64,000 bases of DNA from Streptomyces chrestomyceticus JCM 4735. Its GTDB lineage: Bacteria > Actinomycetota > Actinomycetes > Streptomycetales > Streptomycetaceae. A model generated the notes under the pieces. The model was not told where the DNA came from and did not search any database. It saw only the letters and a program-made list of their open reading frames with translations. The position numbers and the translations under genes are program-made. Shown piece by piece: positions 3,771 through 37,560 of the stretch; position 1 is the stretch's first letter; each line of letters starts with the position of its first letter. The stretch spans positions 6,200,001 to 6,264,000 of the forward strand of contig NZ_BHZC01000001.1 of the NCBI RefSeq assembly GCF_003865135.1, read 5' to 3'.

Positions 3771-4999
3771 TCAGAACCCGTGCGGCAGCCACGGCTTGCG
3801 GTACGCGCCGAACGCCACCGACGCCTCCCGCAGGGCGCCCGGGCGCAGTTCGCGTACCCGGCCCGCCGCGGCCAGCGCGTCCAGGGTGAAGCCGCCCAGG
3901 TAGGCGGCCCCCAGCTCCCGGACGGTCAGCGCCAGGTCGGCCGGGTCCGCGGTCCGCTCGCAGGAGGCGCCCTTCTCGTCGCCGGTGAGCCGCCACCGGC
4001 CCTCGTTCCAGGGGCAGAACGGGTCCGCCACGTCCAGGACCACGTCCAGCGGCGCCGCGTACGTCCGCGCCGCGAGCGCCTCGCCGGCCTCCACCAGCCG
4101 TACGAACAGCGACTCGCGCACCCCGATCCGGCAGCGCCGCATGTCGTCCACGAGGTGCAGCAGCGGATCGTCGGCCGGCCGGTTGCGCACCGTCAGCCGG
4201 GACGTCAGGTCGATGCCGAACAGGTAGCGCCACAGCGCCGCGTAGACCACCGGGTCCAGCGCCTCGACGTCCCGCAGGACCACCGTCCCGTCGGGCCCGC
4301 CGCCGTCCCAGCCCGCCTTGACCGCGTAGCGCGCGTACCCGCGCACCTCCCCGGCGACCTCGGCCAGCACGCACAGCAGCGGCCCGGCCCCGTCCCGGTC
4401 GGCCTCCGGGTCGAGCAGCGGCAGCCGCTCCCAGCCCGGCTGCCGGGCGAGCATCCCGGGCCGGCCCGGGACCAACTGTTCGTACACCTTCTCGCAGTCC
4501 GCCAGCCCGGCCTCCGGGTCGACCAGCCGCAGCCGTACGGCGTCGGCGCCCTCCGGCACCCGGACCGACTGGCGCAGCGTGTCGAGCGACAGGCTCACCG
4601 CCTCGGACGCCGCGCCGTACCCGAAGCGCCCGTAGATCGCCGGCTCGGAGGCGGTGAGCACGGCCAGCGCCTCGCCCCGGTCCCGGACGTCCGCGAGCTG
4701 GCGGCGCATCATCGCGCGCAGCAGACCGCGCCGCCGGTGCGTGGGCTGCACGCTGACCAGCGTGATCCCGGCCACCGGCAGGACGGCGCCGCCGGGCACC
4801 GTCAGCCGGAACGAGTACGCGCCCGCCGTGCCCACGGTCTCGCCGTCGTCCCGCAGGTCCAGGCAGCGCTCCGGCTCGCCGAGCCGCCGCCACAGGGCGC
4901 GCTCCTCGGGCGCTTCCGGGGTGCCCCGAACGCCCGCTCCAGCTTCCCGTACCAGTCGGCCCAGTCGTCCGGACGCAGTTGCCGTAACTCGGTCGTCAT
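3771..4999 (-). pseudogene. Eis-like GNAT N-acetyltransferase, out of frame by one base as sequenced
   Basis: Two frames together give a complete enhanced-intracellular-survival (Eis) type acetyltransferase of about 409 residues: N-terminal GNAT domain (acetyl-CoA loop around VQPTHRRRGLLRAMM), a second GNAT-like domain, and a sterol-carrier-protein-like C-terminal domain with the family's terminal Phe carboxylate (WLPHGF). The N-terminal 25 residues (MTTELRQLRPDDWADWYGK) are read from ATG 4999; the remainder is in another frame. The switch falls at the CCCC run 4924-4927, where one more base would restore the conserved ERAFGGTPEAPEER reading. Codon 5 is TTA (4985-4987), so translation may need the bldA leucyl-tRNA. 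Divergent from the phosphatase gene at 5127. Genuine inactivation and sequencing error are both possible. Confidence 0.8.
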
Positions 5000-8437: not shown

Positions 8438-9901
8438 TCACGACGGGCCGGCGTGACGAAGACCGGGACGGACGGCGGCACGGTCCGCGTCGGCGGTACG
8501 GACATCACCCGGATGCGGCCGGACCGGCTCACCGCACCGCGCCGCGAGCGTCTCGGCTTCGTCTTCCAGGCGTTCAACCTGCTGCCGTCGCTGACGGCCG
8601 GGGAGAACGTCGCCCTGTCGCGACCGGCGGCGCACCGCCGAGGCGCTCGCTCGCGCCGTCCTCGGCCTGCTGCGATACGCGGCCGGCGGGCTCGGCACCA
8701 CGGTCGTCATGGTCACCCGCGACCCGGTGGCCGCTCCTTCCGGAACGCCCACGCCATCCTGGGCTCCACCACGCAGCGCAGGGCTGCGGACCGGCGGCGT
8801 GCACAGCGCCGTCACCGCGACCGCCGCCGTCAGGCTCACCGCCACCTCGCCGAGCGGCGAGTGCGGCCACGCGTACTCCTCGAACCAGCCGCGGGAGCGG
8901 GCGCCCTTGGTCAGGAAGCCGTGCAGCAGGTAGCCGTACAGGGTGCCGGCGCCCAGCGCCGTGAACCACGTACGGCGGGCCGGCACCCACGCGAGGAAGC
9001 AGCCGGTCAGGACCAGCGAGCAGCCGAACATCGCGAGCGTCATCACCGCGCCCGCCCACCAGGGCGCCCCCAACTCCTGCGCGCTCTCCCGGTGGTAGAA
9101 CCACGCCGAGGTCATCCGCGGTACCGCCCAGTAGGCCAGCGCCAGGGCGGCCGCGAAGACGGGCACCGCCGCGATCCGCGCCGCGCGCCGCCGTACGAGC
9201 GCGAAGTGCTCGGGCCGCAGGTGCAGCCCCAGGACGAAGAACGGCAGGAACTGGAGCAGCCGTTGCATGTCGAGGTCGTCACCGACCTCCGGGGACACGG
9301 ACGCCAGAACCGCCACGGCCAGGGCCAGAGGTACGGGCCAACGGATGATCCGCCACAGGGGAGTGGTGAGCCGCCACACGAACAGCGCGGCCAGGAACCA
9401 GGTCAGATACCAGGGGTCCAGGAGGCTGACCGGCATGTCCGGGTCGTCGTACGCCCAGCGCGCGAAAAGCGTGTAGGCGGTCTCGAAGACGAGGTACGGC
9501 ACCACGACACCGGTGATCAGCCGGCGCAGCCGGTCCGGGCGCAGATCGAAACCGCGGGAGAAATACCCGGAGATGATGATGAACGCCGGCATGTGGAAGG
9601 CGTACACCGTCATGTAGAGCGCCCCGGCCGTACGGCTCTGGCCGGTCAGCGGCTCCCAGGAATGCCCCATGGCGACCAGCACGATCGCCAGATACTTCGC
9701 ATTGTCGAAGAAAGCGTTCCGGCCGCTCCCGGCGGCGTCCCCACCGTCCCGGGCGGCGGGTCGCGCGGTCTCCGTCCCCGTCCGCCCGACGGCCCGCGGC
9801 CCCTCACCCCGGGCGTCCGCGGCGGGGGCCGCCGGGTCCGGGACGGAGGGCTCGGCGGCCGGGGGAAGCACACGTCGTGGGGTCGGCGCAGCGGAAAACA
9901 T
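8438..9901 (-). CDS. Acyltransferase 3-like integral membrane protein, 3' end apparently shifted
   Basis: A polytopic protein with the acyltransferase-3/fucose-4-O-acetylase fold: an Ala/Pro-rich cytoplasmic start, then FFDNAKYLAIVLVAMGHSWEPL containing the catalytic-type His, YAFHMPAFIIISGYFSRG, and about ten membrane segments. It would O-acylate a cell-envelope or secondary-metabolite sugar. ATG 9901 is chosen; TAGGGT seven bases before it suggests a leaderless transcript. After ALCTPPVR near 8790 the open frame continues with unlikely sequence to 8438. In a neighbouring frame the expected ending LRCVVEPRMAWAFRKER appears and stops at 8713-8715. A gain of one base or loss of two near 8784-8789 would explain this. 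Intact length would be about 395 residues. Confidence 0.8.
   Translation of the reverse strand: MFSAAPTPRRVLPPAAEPSVPDPAAPAADARGEGPRAVGRTGTETARPAARDGGDAAGSGRNAFFDNAKYLAIVLVAMGHSWEPLTGQSRTAGALYMTVYAFHMPAFIIISGYFSRGFDLRPDRLRRLITGVVVPYLVFETAYTLFARWAYDDPDMPVSLLDPWYLTWFLAALFVWRLTTPLWRIIRWPVPLALAVAVLASVSPEVGDDLDMQRLLQFLPFFVLGLHLRPEHFALVRRRAARIAAVPVFAAALALAYWAVPRMTSAWFYHRESAQELGAPWWAGAVMTLAMFGCSLVLTGCFLAWVPARRTWFTALGAGTLYGYLLHGFLTKGARSRGWFEEYAWPHSPLGEVAVSLTAAVAVTALCTPPVRSPALRGGAQDGVGVPEGAATGSRVTMTTVVPSPPAAYRSRPRTARASASAVRRRSRQGDVLPGRQRRQQVERLEDEAETLAARCGEPVRPHPGDVRTADADRAAVRPGLRHAGPS
8462..8735 (+). pseudogene. Remnant of an ABC-transporter ATP-binding protein (MacB/LolD type)
   Basis: Two conserved blocks of an ABC ATPase survive in different frames. 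From 8462 the translation reads GTVRVGGTDITRMRPDRL, then RRERLGFVFQAFNLLPSLTAGENVAL, which is the Q-loop region of LolD/MacB-like ATPases. From about 8636 a second block in another frame reads ALARAVLGLLRYAAGGLGT followed by TVVMVTRDPVAA, the region after Walker B including the H-loop (with Arg where His is expected). Walker A, the ABC signature and Walker B are all missing, and no permease gene is adjacent. It is a decayed fragment with an internal deletion of roughly 60-90 codons. It ends inside the 3' end of the convergent acyltransferase gene. Confidence 0.75.
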
Positions 9902-33709: not shown

Positions 33710-34156
33710 TCAGCGGGCGGCGCGGTAGGAGCTGTAGGCGACGAGGGCGGCGAGCACCGCGGCGCTCGCCGCCGTGGCGAGGAGTACCCAGAGGGCGATC
33801 CGCGCCCCGCTCGCCCGCTGCCGGGGCCGGCTTGCCCGGGGCTCCCAAGGTGCCTCCGGAGCGCCGCTGAGGGCCGTGTCGGCCAGCAGCCGACGGCAGG
33901 CGGCGGCGAGTTCGCCCGTACCGCTGTCCAGCCGCATCACCGTCTCCGCCCGCGCGGGCGCACTCGTACCGCCGTCCAGGATGCGGCCCGCCCGTAAGAG
34001 CACCTCACCCCGCGTCCCGGTGACGGACAGGCTTATCCACCGCTGGACGTGCTCGCCCCGTATGACCACCCCGCCCGTCCGGTCCCGGTAGACCGTGTGC
34101 TGCTGCCAGAGAACAGCGGCCAACTGGCGTGCGGTGTCCGTCAGATGCGCGAGCAT
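33710..34156 (-). CDS. Hypothetical tail-anchored membrane protein; contains a TTA codon
   Basis: A 148-residue protein whose first 110 residues look like a small soluble domain (LAAVLWQQHTVYRDRTGGVVIRGEHVQRWISLSVTG reads as beta strands) and whose C terminus is a single membrane helix (IALWVLLATAASAAVLAALVAY) with a short basic end, so it is probably tail-anchored with the domain in the cytoplasm. I do not recognise the family. ATG 34156 is preceded by AGGGGGA. Codon 54 is TTA (33995-33997), which makes it a candidate bldA-dependent gene. Confidence 0.75.
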   Translation of the reverse strand: MLAHLTDTARQLAAVLWQQHTVYRDRTGGVVIRGEHVQRWISLSVTGTRGEVLLRAGRILDGGTSAPARAETVMRLDSGTGELAAACRRLLADTALSGAPEAPWEPRASRPRQRASGARIALWVLLATAASAAVLAALVAYSSYRAAR

Positions 34157-34341
34157 CGTTCCCCCTGCTCTGATGTGCGCCGGTCAAGGATCGCACTGTA
34201 CCGGCAGGTGCGGACGGGGACGGACCGGGGTCCGGGCAGTGTCAGGGGCGGGGCGGCGGAGCGCCGTCGGGCCGGAACGTGGACGCCGAAGGCGGTGTCC
34301 GCCCCGGGTGGCAGCTCGGGACGGACACCGGCAGACAGGCG

Positions 34342-36194
34342 TCAGGACTGCTGGATGCGCAGCAAGGAGGCCGCCAGTTGGTCCACCTCCTCAGGGGTGT
34401 TGTAGAGGGCCAGGGAGGCGCGTACGGCGCTGTCCAGGCCGTAGTGGGCCAGGGCCGGCTGCGCGCAGTGGTGGCCCGAGCGGACGGCGATGCCCTCCAG
34501 GTCGAGGGCCTGCGCCACCGCCGTCGGGTCGTGCCCGGCGAGCGTGAAGGCCAGCACCCCGATGCGGTCGGGGCCTCACCCAATACCCGTAGGCCGGGTA
34601 CGGCCGCCAGCACCTGCTGCGCGTAGGCCAGCAACTGGGTCTCGTACGCGGCGATGGCCTCGTGGTCGAAGGACGACAGCCAGTCGAGGGCCGCGAGCAG
34701 CCCCACCACACCGGAGATGTGGCCCGTACCGGCCTCGAAGAGGTGCGGTGCGGGCGCGAACGTCGTGCGGTCGAAGGAAACGGACTCGATCATGTTCCCG
34801 CCGCCCTGCCACGGCGCCATCGACGCCAGCAGCTCGGGCTTGGCGTACAGCGCGCCGATCCCCGTGGGCGCGAACAGCTTGTGACCGGAGAAGGCGTAGA
34901 AGTCGGCGTCCAGAGCCTGCACGTCGACCGGGAAGTGGGCCACCGCCTGCGCGCCGTCCACCAGCACCTTGGCGCCGTAACGGTGGGCCAGCGCCGTCAT
35001 CTCCGCCACCGGCGGGACGGTGCCCAGCACGTTGGAGGCATGGCTGACGGCCACCAGGCGGGTACGGGAGGACAGCAGGTCGGCGTAGGCGAACTGGTCG
35101 ATCTGCCCGTCCGGCAGCAGCGGGACCGGCACCACCCGGGCGTGTGTCTCGGCGGCGAGCTGCTGCCACGGCACGATGTCGGAGTGGTGCTCCAGTACGG
35201 GGACGAGGATGTCGTCGCCCGGACCGACGTTGGCCCGCCCCCAGGTCTGGGCGACCAGGTTGATCGCCTCGGTGGTGCCCCGGACGAAGACGATCTCCTC
35301 GGGGGACGGGGCGCCCAGGAAGTCCGCGACGGCGGCCCGGCCCGCTTCGTACAGGGCGGTGGCGTCGCGGGCCATGGAGTGGGCGCCGCGGTGGATGTTG
35401 GAGTTGGCCGAGCCGTAGAACGCGGCCACGGCCTCGATCACCTGGCGCGGCTTCTGCGTGGTGGCGCCGTTGTCGAGCCACACGAGCGGCCGGCCGTTGA
35501 CCAGCCGGTGCAGGATCGGGACGTCGCGGCGCGCCATCTCCGGGGAGAAGGCGCCGCGTTGGGCTCCGGGGAATTGCTGGGGAACGGAACCGACGGTGGG
35601 GTCGGTCGCGGGAACGGCCGGGGTGGTGGGGACGGTGGTGGCCGTATCGGGGGCCGGGACGGCACTCGCGGCGGGGGCCGCGCCCGTGGTCGGTATCGCG
35701 GCCACGCCGGGGACGGCGCCCATGGCCGGTATCGCGTCCATGCGGGGGACAGCGCCCGTGGCCGGAACGGAGTTCGGGTCCGGGACCGTCGGCGTAGCCG
35801 GAACCGCGCTCGTTCCGGGGATCGCGCTCATGCCCGGGACGGCGCCGAAGCCGAGGTACTGCTCCGCTCCAGGTACCGCCGACGCCGTACTGGGAACGGC
35901 ACTTGACGTCGCGCCGCCCGTGCCGGAGCCCGCGCTCGGGACCGGTGGCATCCCCGGCAGACCGGCCATGGCGGCGGCCGGTACGACGGTCGCCCCCGCG
36001 CCCGGCGCCGCGCCCATGTTCGGTGCTGTGGCCGGTGTGGTGGCCGCTGCCGTCGCGGGTGCCGTGTCCGCCGGTACGGCCGGGGCCGTCGCGGCGGCGG
36101 ACGGCGCCGCCGGGCCCGCGGTGCCGGCCCTCGTCCCCTTGCCCAGGAGCGCGCTCAGCGGTGCCGTGAGCCCCGTGACCTCAGGAGTAGTCAT
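34342..36194 (-). pseudogene. Encapsulin cargo: SufS-type cysteine desulfurase with a long disordered leader; frame broken near the end as sequenced
   Basis: A PLP enzyme releasing sulfur from cysteine as a persulfide. From ATG 36194 the first ~215 residues are Ala/Pro/Thr-rich, low complexity, with hydrophobic P-x-M/V motifs repeated (AVPGMSAIPGTSAVP, VPRMDAIPAMGAVPG); such leaders load cysteine desulfurase into family 2 encapsulins. The catalytic domain follows: ARRDVPILHRLVNGRPLVWLDNGATTQKP, HHSDIVPW, PLP Lys439 in FSGHKLFAPTG. At GGGG 34570-34573 one base is missing; the last 76 residues, including RSGHHCAQP with the catalytic Cys (codon 34465-34467), lie in another frame ending at 34342. 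With one base added the gene is 617 codons. Its start overlaps the shell gene by 14 bases, so the two are coupled. Confidence 0.85.
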
Positions 36195-37560
36195 GGTACT
36201 TGGACACCTCGACGTTCTGGAGGACGGCCAGGGCGTCCTCGACCAGGACGGCGGTGTTGAAGTAGGCCGTGACCAGGTACGAGGTGATGGCCTTCTGGTC
36301 CACGCCCATGTTGCGGATGGACAGGCCGGGTTCCGCCTCGTCGGGCACCGAGCTGGGACGCAGACCCACCACGCCCTGCTCGGCCTCGCCCACCCGCATC
36401 AGCAGGATCTCCGTCGTACCCGCGCCGTTGATGCCCACCTTGTCGGACGGCAGCAGCGGCACGCCGCGCCAGGTCAGCAGCGGACTGCCGAACCGGGTGT
36501 CGGTCACCGGGGGCACACCCCGGCGGGTACATTCACGCCCGAACGCGGCGATCGCCCGAGGGTGCGCCACGAAGTACGCGGGCTGCTTCCACACCTTGGC
36601 CAGCAGCTCGTCCAGGTCGTCCGGCGTCGGCGAGCCGGTGCGCGGCTGCACCCGCATCCCCGGCGCGACCTGGTTGAACAGGCCGAACTCCGGGTGGTTG
36701 AGCATCATCGACTCCTGCCGCTCACGCAGCGCGTGCACGGTCAGGTTGCTCTGCGCCCGGGTCTGGTCGATGGGCTGGTTGTACAGGTCGGCGACGCGGG
36801 TGTGCACGCGCAGCACGGTCTGGGCGAGGCTCATGTGGTACTCGCGCGGCGTGTCCTCGTACTCCACGTACGTGCCCGGCAGCACCGGTTCGCCGACGTG
36901 CCCGGCGGCCAGGTCGACCGGCGCCTCGGCGCCCGGCGTGGGCCCTTCGCCGGAGCAGTAGGACTCCATCGAGGTGCGCAACGACTCGTCGCGGTCGGCC
37001 AGTTCGGCCAGCTTGGAGCGGTGGATGCACAGCGCGACACCGGGGGTGAGGGTACGGACCCGGTACGGCAGCGTCTCGCCCTTGGCCCAGGCCTCCAGGT
37101 CGAAGAACTGGCCGTCGCCGACGATCTCCAGCAGCGCGTCCTCGCCGTAGCGGCCGGTCACCCGCTTCTCCGCGCGGCCCCGTACGAGCACCCAGAGCCG
37201 GTCGGCGGTGTCGCTCTCCGTGCACAGTAACTGCCCGGCCTCGAAGGTCACCTCGTCGCACGTCTCGGCCAGTTCGCGAAGCTGTCCCTCGTCCGCCTGC
37301 CGCAGGAACGGCAGTTCCCGCAGGTCCTCGGGCACGATGCGGTGGCTGTCGCCCTCGGAGAAGGTGCTGATCCGGTCGTCGCCGAGGATGAACGTACGGC
37401 GGCGGTTGACGCGGTAGACACCGGCGTCGACATCCACCCACGGCAGGGCGCGCAGCAGATAGCGCGGGGTGATGCCGCGCATCTGCGGCGTGGTCTTGGT
37501 GGCGGTGGCGAGTTGCCGTGCCGCATCGGGACTGAGGCTCTGGCGGCCGTTGGTGGTCAT
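36181..37560 (-). CDS. Family 2B-type encapsulin shell protein with cyclic-nucleotide-binding domain
   Basis: A 459-residue HK97-fold shell protein. The N-terminal arm and first strands (PQMRGITPRYLLRALPWVDVDAGVYRVNRR) and the C-terminal half (EDTPREYHMSLAQTVLRVHTRVADLYNQP... GVPLLPSDKV... ILLMRVGEAEQGVVGL... SIRNMGVDQKAITSYLVTAYF) match family 2 encapsulins. Residues about 85-205 are a cyclic-nucleotide-binding domain (FEAGQLLCTESDTADRLWVLVRG, then EIVGDGQFFDLEAW), the insertion that defines family 2B. It should assemble into a protein compartment around the cargo encoded next to it. ATG 37560 has GAGGAGGAACG upstream. Codon 111 is TTA (37228-37230), suggesting bldA-dependent, developmentally timed synthesis. 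Known family 2B cargo is mostly terpene-related; cysteine desulfurase is best known from family 2A. Confidence 0.88.
   Translation of the reverse strand: MTTNGRQSLSPDAARQLATATKTTPQMRGITPRYLLRALPWVDVDAGVYRVNRRRTFILGDDRISTFSEGDSHRIVPEDLRELPFLRQADEGQLRELAETCDEVTFEAGQLLCTESDTADRLWVLVRGRAEKRVTGRYGEDALLEIVGDGQFFDLEAWAKGETLPYRVRTLTPGVALCIHRSKLAELADRDESLRTSMESYCSGEGPTPGAEAPVDLAAGHVGEPVLPGTYVEYEDTPREYHMSLAQTVLRVHTRVADLYNQPIDQTRAQSNLTVHALRERQESMMLNHPEFGLFNQVAPGMRVQPRTGSPTPDDLDELLAKVWKQPAYFVAHPRAIAAFGRECTRRGVPPVTDTRFGSPLLTWRGVPLLPSDKVGINGAGTTEILLMRVGEAEQGVVGLRPSSVPDEAEPGLSIRNMGVDQKAITSYLVTAYFNTAVLVEDALAVLQNVEVSKYHDYS

Follow-up and report, generated by a model that had tools for sequence, protein, structure and literature searches.

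A putative encapsulin–cysteine desulfurase module of Streptomyces whose enzymes lack the published leader motifs

How could a cysteine desulfurase (CD) be packed into an encapsulin without the leader motifs described for such cargo? The question is raised by two overlapping genes in a 64,000-nucleotide stretch of Streptomyces chrestomyceticus JCM 4735 (contig NZ_BHZC01000001.1, positions 6,200,001 to 6,264,000), hereafter the window. Encapsulins are virus-derived protein shells, and CDs are sulfur-releasing enzymes. Judged by its sequence, the shell of the window is a genuine family 2B-type encapsulin, and its assembly into an icosahedral particle is a prediction. The pairing of a 2B shell with a CD is already known; new is a motif-less, often leaderless CD together with an altered proposed cargo contact in one lineage of Streptomyces. 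In our estimate the chances are evenly divided that this CD compartment has switched to leader-independent loading, the shell being predicted to enclose the motif-less enzyme. The features that bear first on this question are the following (window coordinates).

36181..37560, minus strand: family 2 encapsulin shell gene of 459 residues, bearing a cyclic-nucleotide-binding-like domain (CBD); NCBIfam, Pfam and PDB sequence matches
35577..36194, minus strand: CD leader, 206 residues from the start to the conserved core, rich in Pro, Ala, Thr and Gly
35672..35845, minus strand: tandem repeats of 36 and 18 bases within the leader (TRF rows 35672-35765 and 35798-35845)
36310..36312, minus strand: residue N417 of the shell, equivalent of SrpI F262, a proposed cargo contact; alignment to 6x8m

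The family 2A system SrpI/CyD of Synechococcus elongatus (6x8m, 6x8t) likewise has a SufS-type CD encoded with the shell. According to the report on it (PMC8049743), the N-terminal domain (NTD) of this CD has 225 residues with the motifs LARLANEFFS and AASPYYFLDG and is required for loading: the CD without the NTD was not measurably encapsulated, and loading was obtained with the first 100 residues or with all 225, not with a fragment bearing only the YYF motif. SrpI has no CBD, and the CDs of the Streptomyces lineage lack both motifs.

The shell was found in 50 of 392 Streptomyces genomes, the window's included (E ≤ 1e-150), and the lineage shells form one branch (54/54 rows, support 1.0). 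In these counts one gene figures twice, as L080 and L229, so that the 52 CD rows of the lineage stand for 51 genes and the 54 shell rows for 53; L007 and L147 are likewise identical. Leader length varies between 0 and 206 residues in the lineage and between 49 and 413 in other encapsulin CDs; 14 of the 52 lineage CD rows have a leader of 20 residues or fewer, L219 (S. xanthochromogenes), L090 and L104 being naturally leaderless examples. To seed the matrix for the amphipathic helix motif, a regular expression was applied to the 55 leaders on which the matrix was then scored, with leave-one-out and 200 shuffles each. It recognized 50 of these 55 other encapsulin CDs (four rows being 2A) and missed L147, L157, L171, L178 and L191, with L157 and L171 coming close. 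The motif was present in none of the 42 lineage leaders of at least 16 residues, 10 further leaders being shorter than 16. A YYF-like motif occurred in 0/52 lineage CDs versus 24/55 other encapsulin CDs. The 2B-CD members found in other phyla mostly have longer leaders with the helix motif, unlike the lineage, which also departs from them in its CBD pocket and at the position of SrpI F262. No report of a motif-less or leaderless encapsulin CD was found in the literature searched, which was mostly without subscription papers.

The leaders might nevertheless be of an ordinary kind. The module would then be a usual 2B-CD encapsulin, in which a long low-complexity leader loads the enzyme by bulk composition and the short-leader members have decayed or are loaded via their few remaining residues. 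The window and its three nearest relatives do have leaders of 144 to 206 residues, disordered domains are said in PMC8049743 to evolve fast while retaining their bulk chemistry, and many 2B-CD operons are known (PMC8346489). However, the leader composition is unlike that of other encapsulin CDs, with a Pro+Ala+Thr fraction of 0.55 versus 0.30 and Phe+Tyr of about 0 versus 0.06. Short and long leaders also alternate along the shell tree, with at least 9 changes of class (shuffled mean 12.6, minimum 9), and the catalytic motif is intact in 51 of 52 rows. We therefore think this explanation unlikely. The preliminary description of the locus had held that absence of the leader in close relatives would speak against its reading of a shell with CD cargo. 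A long leader is there in the window and the three nearest relatives; it is nearly absent in several members of the lineage, so the objection applies in part.

The second line of evidence for leader-independent loading comes from the shell. In SrpI, F262 and Y273 were named at the threefold axis near cargo density (PMC8049743), and the alignment to 6x8m places them at N417 and Y428 of the window shell. The equivalent of F262 is N in 52, D in one and A in one of the 54 lineage shells. Elsewhere, it is F in 6/6 2A shells and L in 38, Y in 9, F in 4, H in one and P in one of 53 other CD-linked 2B shells. F, L or Y thus occupies the site in 57 of 59 other CD-type shells (51/53 among the CD-linked 2B). 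The equivalents of SrpI A271 and S280 are T and N, respectively, each in 53/54 lineage shells. Seven 2A shells were found, of which L241 gave no row, leaving six in the shell tree; L143_0, a terpene-side shell, was excluded from the CD-linked counts, and L168, L169, L170, L176 and L192, on contigs without a CD, were counted as other 2B shells. In the two-shell loci L207, L212, L213, L215 and L224, the second, lower-scoring shell has Arg at the F262 position and its partner Phe or Tyr.

Several observations weigh against a rewired loading site. The second SrpI contact is unchanged, Y428 being present in 54/54 lineage shells. Under a fixed rule, clade-specific switches were not significantly concentrated at the threefold site (2/23 positions there versus 10/272 elsewhere in the core); when position 417 was added by hand with two borderline positions, the counts became 3/23 versus 12/272 (one-sided p = 0.10). 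The loss of leaders and the change at the F262 site may each go back to a single basal event in the lineage, and their joint occurrence is then to be counted only once. Outside Streptomyces, L147 lacks the motif and has His at the site; with a CD that is sister to those of the lineage, it is not a clearly independent case. The motif-bearing CD L155 is paired with a shell with Pro at this position, and L171, L178 and L191, which fail the motif test, are paired with shells with Leu there. Finally, PMC8049743 does not prove that the leader motifs as such are loading signals, and as the SrpI CD without its NTD was not measurably loaded, a leaderless CD may simply remain outside.

That last point leads to the chief rival of leader-independent loading, namely that the CD is no longer cargo. 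It would be a co-expressed partner located outside the shell or on its outer face, and the shell would hold something else or nothing. The loss of both published motifs, the 14 rows with at most 20 leader residues, the loss of the hydrophobic F262 equivalent and the behaviour of the truncated SrpI CD (PMC8049743) would all suit this account. Against it stand the pairing and the gene overlap, which persist wherever the contig is not cut, and the lack of any other widely common neighbour that could serve as cargo. We judge it possible, though on the unlikely side. The relevant part of the locus is the gene junction.

36181..36194, minus strand: overlap of the shell stop and the CD start, 14 bases encoding MTTP; read from the sequence

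The overlap was correctly recognized in the preliminary description, the CD start at 36194 lying inside the shell gene. The ATG at −14 is kept in 52/52 lineage CD rows, two of which have an additional earlier ATG. A survey of Streptomyces for such shells next to CDs, proposed in the same description, gave the 50 genomes mentioned above, with the CD directly downstream of the shell in 47 of 49 regions examined; the other two end at a contig edge. When the neighbouring genes were clustered over 50 loci (compared by sharing, not named by any profile scan), the shell cluster was represented in 49, the CD cluster in 48 and the next commonest in 11. As no third gene occurs in more than 11 of the 50 loci, shell and CD move, or come and go, without a companion gene: a bare two-gene module found at many genomic sites in one Streptomyces lineage. 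A third operon partner, such as a rhodanese or serine acetyltransferase, was considered and rejected, nothing beyond the pair being widely common. The conserved N-terminal MTTPD/E of the CDs was also rejected as a loading tag; its sequence is fixed by the shell's YHDYS-stop, which it overlaps, and hence gives no independent evidence for such a tag.

The history of both genes was studied with phylogenetic trees. In the shell core tree (294 HK97 columns, 192 rows, unrooted), the lineage branch sits on the side of the CD-type shells, which comprises 2A and the CD-linked 2B shells of other phyla (0.929/0.863). The 2A shells group with CD-linked 2B shells (a 64-row split holding 58 of the 60 wanted, 0.985), and most other 2B shells, including the terpene-type ones, stand mostly apart on the other side (a 74-row split holding 72 of 78, support 0.929). 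The unrooted tree thus appears to track cargo type rather than the presence of the CBD. Encapsulin-linked CDs form one clade apart from 29 housekeeping SufS rows (0.999), and the lineage CDs are one branch of it (52/52, support 0.983). By this tree, the lineage CDs belong to the encapsulin-linked clade and not to housekeeping SufS, and they are also encoded next to a shell. L115, a second copy of the L143 CD, was placed among the 30 housekeeping rows (29 of them true) and is the 108th row of the CD clade. The sister of the lineage CDs is L147 (genome G049, from another family of the same order; 0.998); a search of 296 class-level genomes at E ≤ 1e-148, too strict a limit to admit weaker relatives, gave no further L147-like members. 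Shell and CD distances are correlated (Mantel r 0.85, n=51, 0/500 permutations as high). Such evolution in step argues against a CD that is no longer cargo, though the correlation is also expected from vertical descent alone.

The window CD matches NF041166 with 523.5 bits over residues 206-542, sufS with 415.8 bits and Pfam Aminotran_5, in line with the SufS-type CD reported by the preliminary description. That description had presented a CD beside a 2B shell as unusual; the pairing is real, but it is no surprise, for PMC8346489 already counts CDs in 199 family 2B operons from 9 phyla, which share with the window the HK97 shell, the E-loop CBD and the adjacent SufS-type CD. Against NF041166 (cut-off 800), four intact lineage CDs scored 606-644 bits and were above cut-off only for the general SufS model, compared with 843 for a 2A CD, 812 for a Methylobacterium CD and 696.5 for the YYF-bearing L143 CD. 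As the last is also below 800, the NF041166 score is no clean test. As a cargo finder this model was rejected, since it also picks up housekeeping SufS (matches in 99/296 genomes, one above cut-off). The housekeeping SufS of the source genome (G000:C1:7203229-7204446) is of the same enzyme family (sufS 615.9 bits) and falls in the separate clade; its neighbours read as a suf operon, and no shell match was found in the 12 kb around it.

The domain composition of the shell was established with profiles and structure searches. It scores 643 bits with NCBIfam encap_f2b (NF041163, cut-off 400) and also exceeds the encap_f2a cut-off (405.6 bits versus 380), so the search against both models suggested in the preliminary description favours 2B. 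Pfam locates a SrpI-like domain of the HK97 type (PF19307, 369 bits) at residues 211-453 and cNMP_binding (PF00027) at 104-191, between the N-arm and the core. Both the SrpI-like core and the E-loop CBD of family 2B are thus present, in agreement with the earlier assignment, and the CBD is at odds with family 2A, which lacks it, despite the 2A score.

36976..37338, minus strand: CBD in the E-loop, about residues 75-195; PF00027, alignment and predicted beta-roll
37045..37125, minus strand: CBD pocket stretch, residues 146-172; column counts per group

The insert had previously been given as residues 85-205; it exists, but the columns without a counterpart in 2A shells extend over about residues 55-210. 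In sequence, the Streptomyces 2B shells 9bje, 9bhu and 9bix are the nearest solved structures, followed by SrpI (6x8m) and other 2A shells, and the top Foldseek matches of the shell model, 9bhu and 6x8m, agree with this ranking. The fold search gave 55% identity with SrpI over 218 aligned columns, and the two share a C-terminal YHxY. The domain plan is the same as in 9bhu (S. griseus) and in 9bje/9bix (S. lydicus), whose CBDs lie outside over the twofold pores; all three have a cargo different from CD, and 9bje/9bix are of the two-shell, xylulose kinase type (PMC12407261). The AlphaFold model (mean pLDDT 61.9, pTM 0.38) is confident only in part, in the CBD, where a beta-roll is predicted with block pLDDT of about 70-91, and in much of the A-domain. 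As residues 394-435 are below 50, residue 417 was not placed from the model. A chimera of a 2A core with a borrowed CBD was rejected: all seven shells scored, namely six 2B (CD-linked ones and L210, which has no CD found nearby, among them) and one 2A, pass the 2A cut-off, and the placement of 2A among CD-linked 2B shells in the tree also disfavours it.

The pocket of the lineage CBD reads G-D-G-Q-F-F-D-L-x-A-W, with frequencies of 0.94 for D154, 0.93 for L155 and 1.00 for W158 in the 54 shells. Most other 2B shells, the terpene-linked and other types included, have G and then mostly E or D where the lineage has D154-L155. The role of G-E and of a later Arg in such a pocket is taken from CRP. 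A loose G-E...R pattern was uninformative (8/54 in the lineage, 4/53 and 16/78 in the other groups). Mean identity within the lineage is 67% for the CBD, 73% for the pocket stretch and 85% for the HK97 core. The pocket thus seems to be under constraint, though of another kind than at an ordinary cyclic-nucleotide site. PMC12407261, citing its ref. 35, reports that family 2B CBDs do not bind cyclic nucleotides. Nucleotide gating of the compartment, proposed in the preliminary description, was dropped: the residues of the pocket do not suit it, and the relatives are reported as non-binding (PMC12407261).

The CD gene of the window itself is interrupted.

34575..35576, minus strand: CD catalytic core 5′ of the break, with the pyridoxal-phosphate lysine motif SGHK; NF041166, sufS and Aminotran_5
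34342..34584, minus strand: C-terminal part of the CD with HHCAQP, in a different frame; translation, relatives and phase of the GC content at third codon positions (GC3)

The preliminary description gave an intact CD frame ending at 34342 and thereby crossed the break silently. The frame opened at 36194 closes at 34242, and the genuine C-terminus (RSGHHCAQP) is encoded in a second frame, which stops at 34342. Alignment to three close relatives, in which the CD frame runs uninterrupted through the site, puts the break at about 34575, ahead of the catalytic cysteine and in a short single-base run. The GC3 phase flips there in the window and is steady in the relative G361, whose shell is 97% identical to that of the window. 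HHCAQP is present in 51 of 52 lineage CD rows, the window being the sole exception, and SGHK in 52/52.

Of 50 G361 open reading frames compared with the window, 48 have a homologue, and six window-side frame breaks appeared. At three of these (near 4913, 34570 and 61247), the window changes its GC3 phase and G361 does not, the one near 4913 falling inside a GNAT domain; the remaining three lie near 8440, 26530 and 28597. The reverse comparison of 46 window frames with G361 gave four breaks. One is a gene boundary with a phase change in both genomes, and the others read as the wrong-frame tail of the CD, a 5′ overrun of the shell frame and an antisense frame. Because similar window-only breaks occur near 4913 and 61247 within 64 kb, the break in the CD is probably a sequence error rather than decay of the gene; the two other sites likewise suggest assembly errors of the indel type. 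That the CD is a true pseudogene in this strain, and this copy of the module is dying, would fit a break that precedes the catalytic cysteine and is visible against three relatives; given the two further breaks of the same kind and a core with no other damage seen, it is rather improbable. A programmed shift yielding a short and a long CD has the one-base run in its favour; as all 51 other lineage CDs hold the catalytic motif in the core frame and the nearest relative is without any shift, it is hardly credible.

As for the genomic site, the module adjoins a cell-shape operon and is flanked by mrdA and rodA on one side and by a CYTH-CHAD gene and a TIGR03960 radical SAM gene on the other. Among the stretches examined, it stands beside mrdA/rodA only in the window and three relatives (L058-L060). 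At the same site in 20 other Streptomyces genomes, the order was rodA – CYTH/CHAD – radical SAM in 19 (one hit partial) and rodA – radical SAM in one. The shell and CD pair was absent from the site in all 20, which supports the lineage-specific insertion proposed earlier, and the direct rodA–radical SAM order given there for S. coelicolor is not the usual one, being seen in that one genome of the 20. The module is carried elsewhere by 11 of the 20. In L256 (G031), about 5.7 kb of other DNA separates rodA from CYTH/CHAD, and the site thus seems to accept other insertions as well. A 148-residue protein beside rodA (33710-34156, minus strand), common to the four mre-linked genomes, matches nothing in Pfam or NCBIfam at E ≤ 0.001.

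The source genome has four further 2B shells at three places: L110, L111 and L112, at G000:C1 about 745845, 1154827-1157694 and 8726673. Two are single shells beside terpene synthases, and the other two form a pair near a xylose-isomerase-like TIM-barrel gene. In L143 (G596, same phylum), a terpene synthase gene (by Pfam), two different 2B shells and the CD with the YYF-bearing leader occur together, so that two cargo types stand side by side.

If loading is leader-independent, translation coupled at the overlap would let shell and CD be made side by side. The CD core would then dock close to the threefold axis, on the altered luminal side of the shell, or be trapped during assembly. Cysteine would enter via the pores, and the CD would leave persulfide or stored sulfur inside; the CBD may bind a ligand other than cyclic AMP or cyclic GMP and tune access at the twofold pores. 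In its full form, which we put forward tentatively, the proposal is that the lineage dropped the leader code and rewired a luminal site, the enzyme core, helped by coupled translation, becoming the packing signal and the CBD a sensor for another ligand that controls a sulfur compartment. The lineage offers an experiment of nature: shell and enzyme stay paired while the leader dwindles to nothing; comparison of its leaderless, short-leader and long-leader pairs would show whether a leader is needed, whether the threefold site binds cargo and to what the CBD responds.

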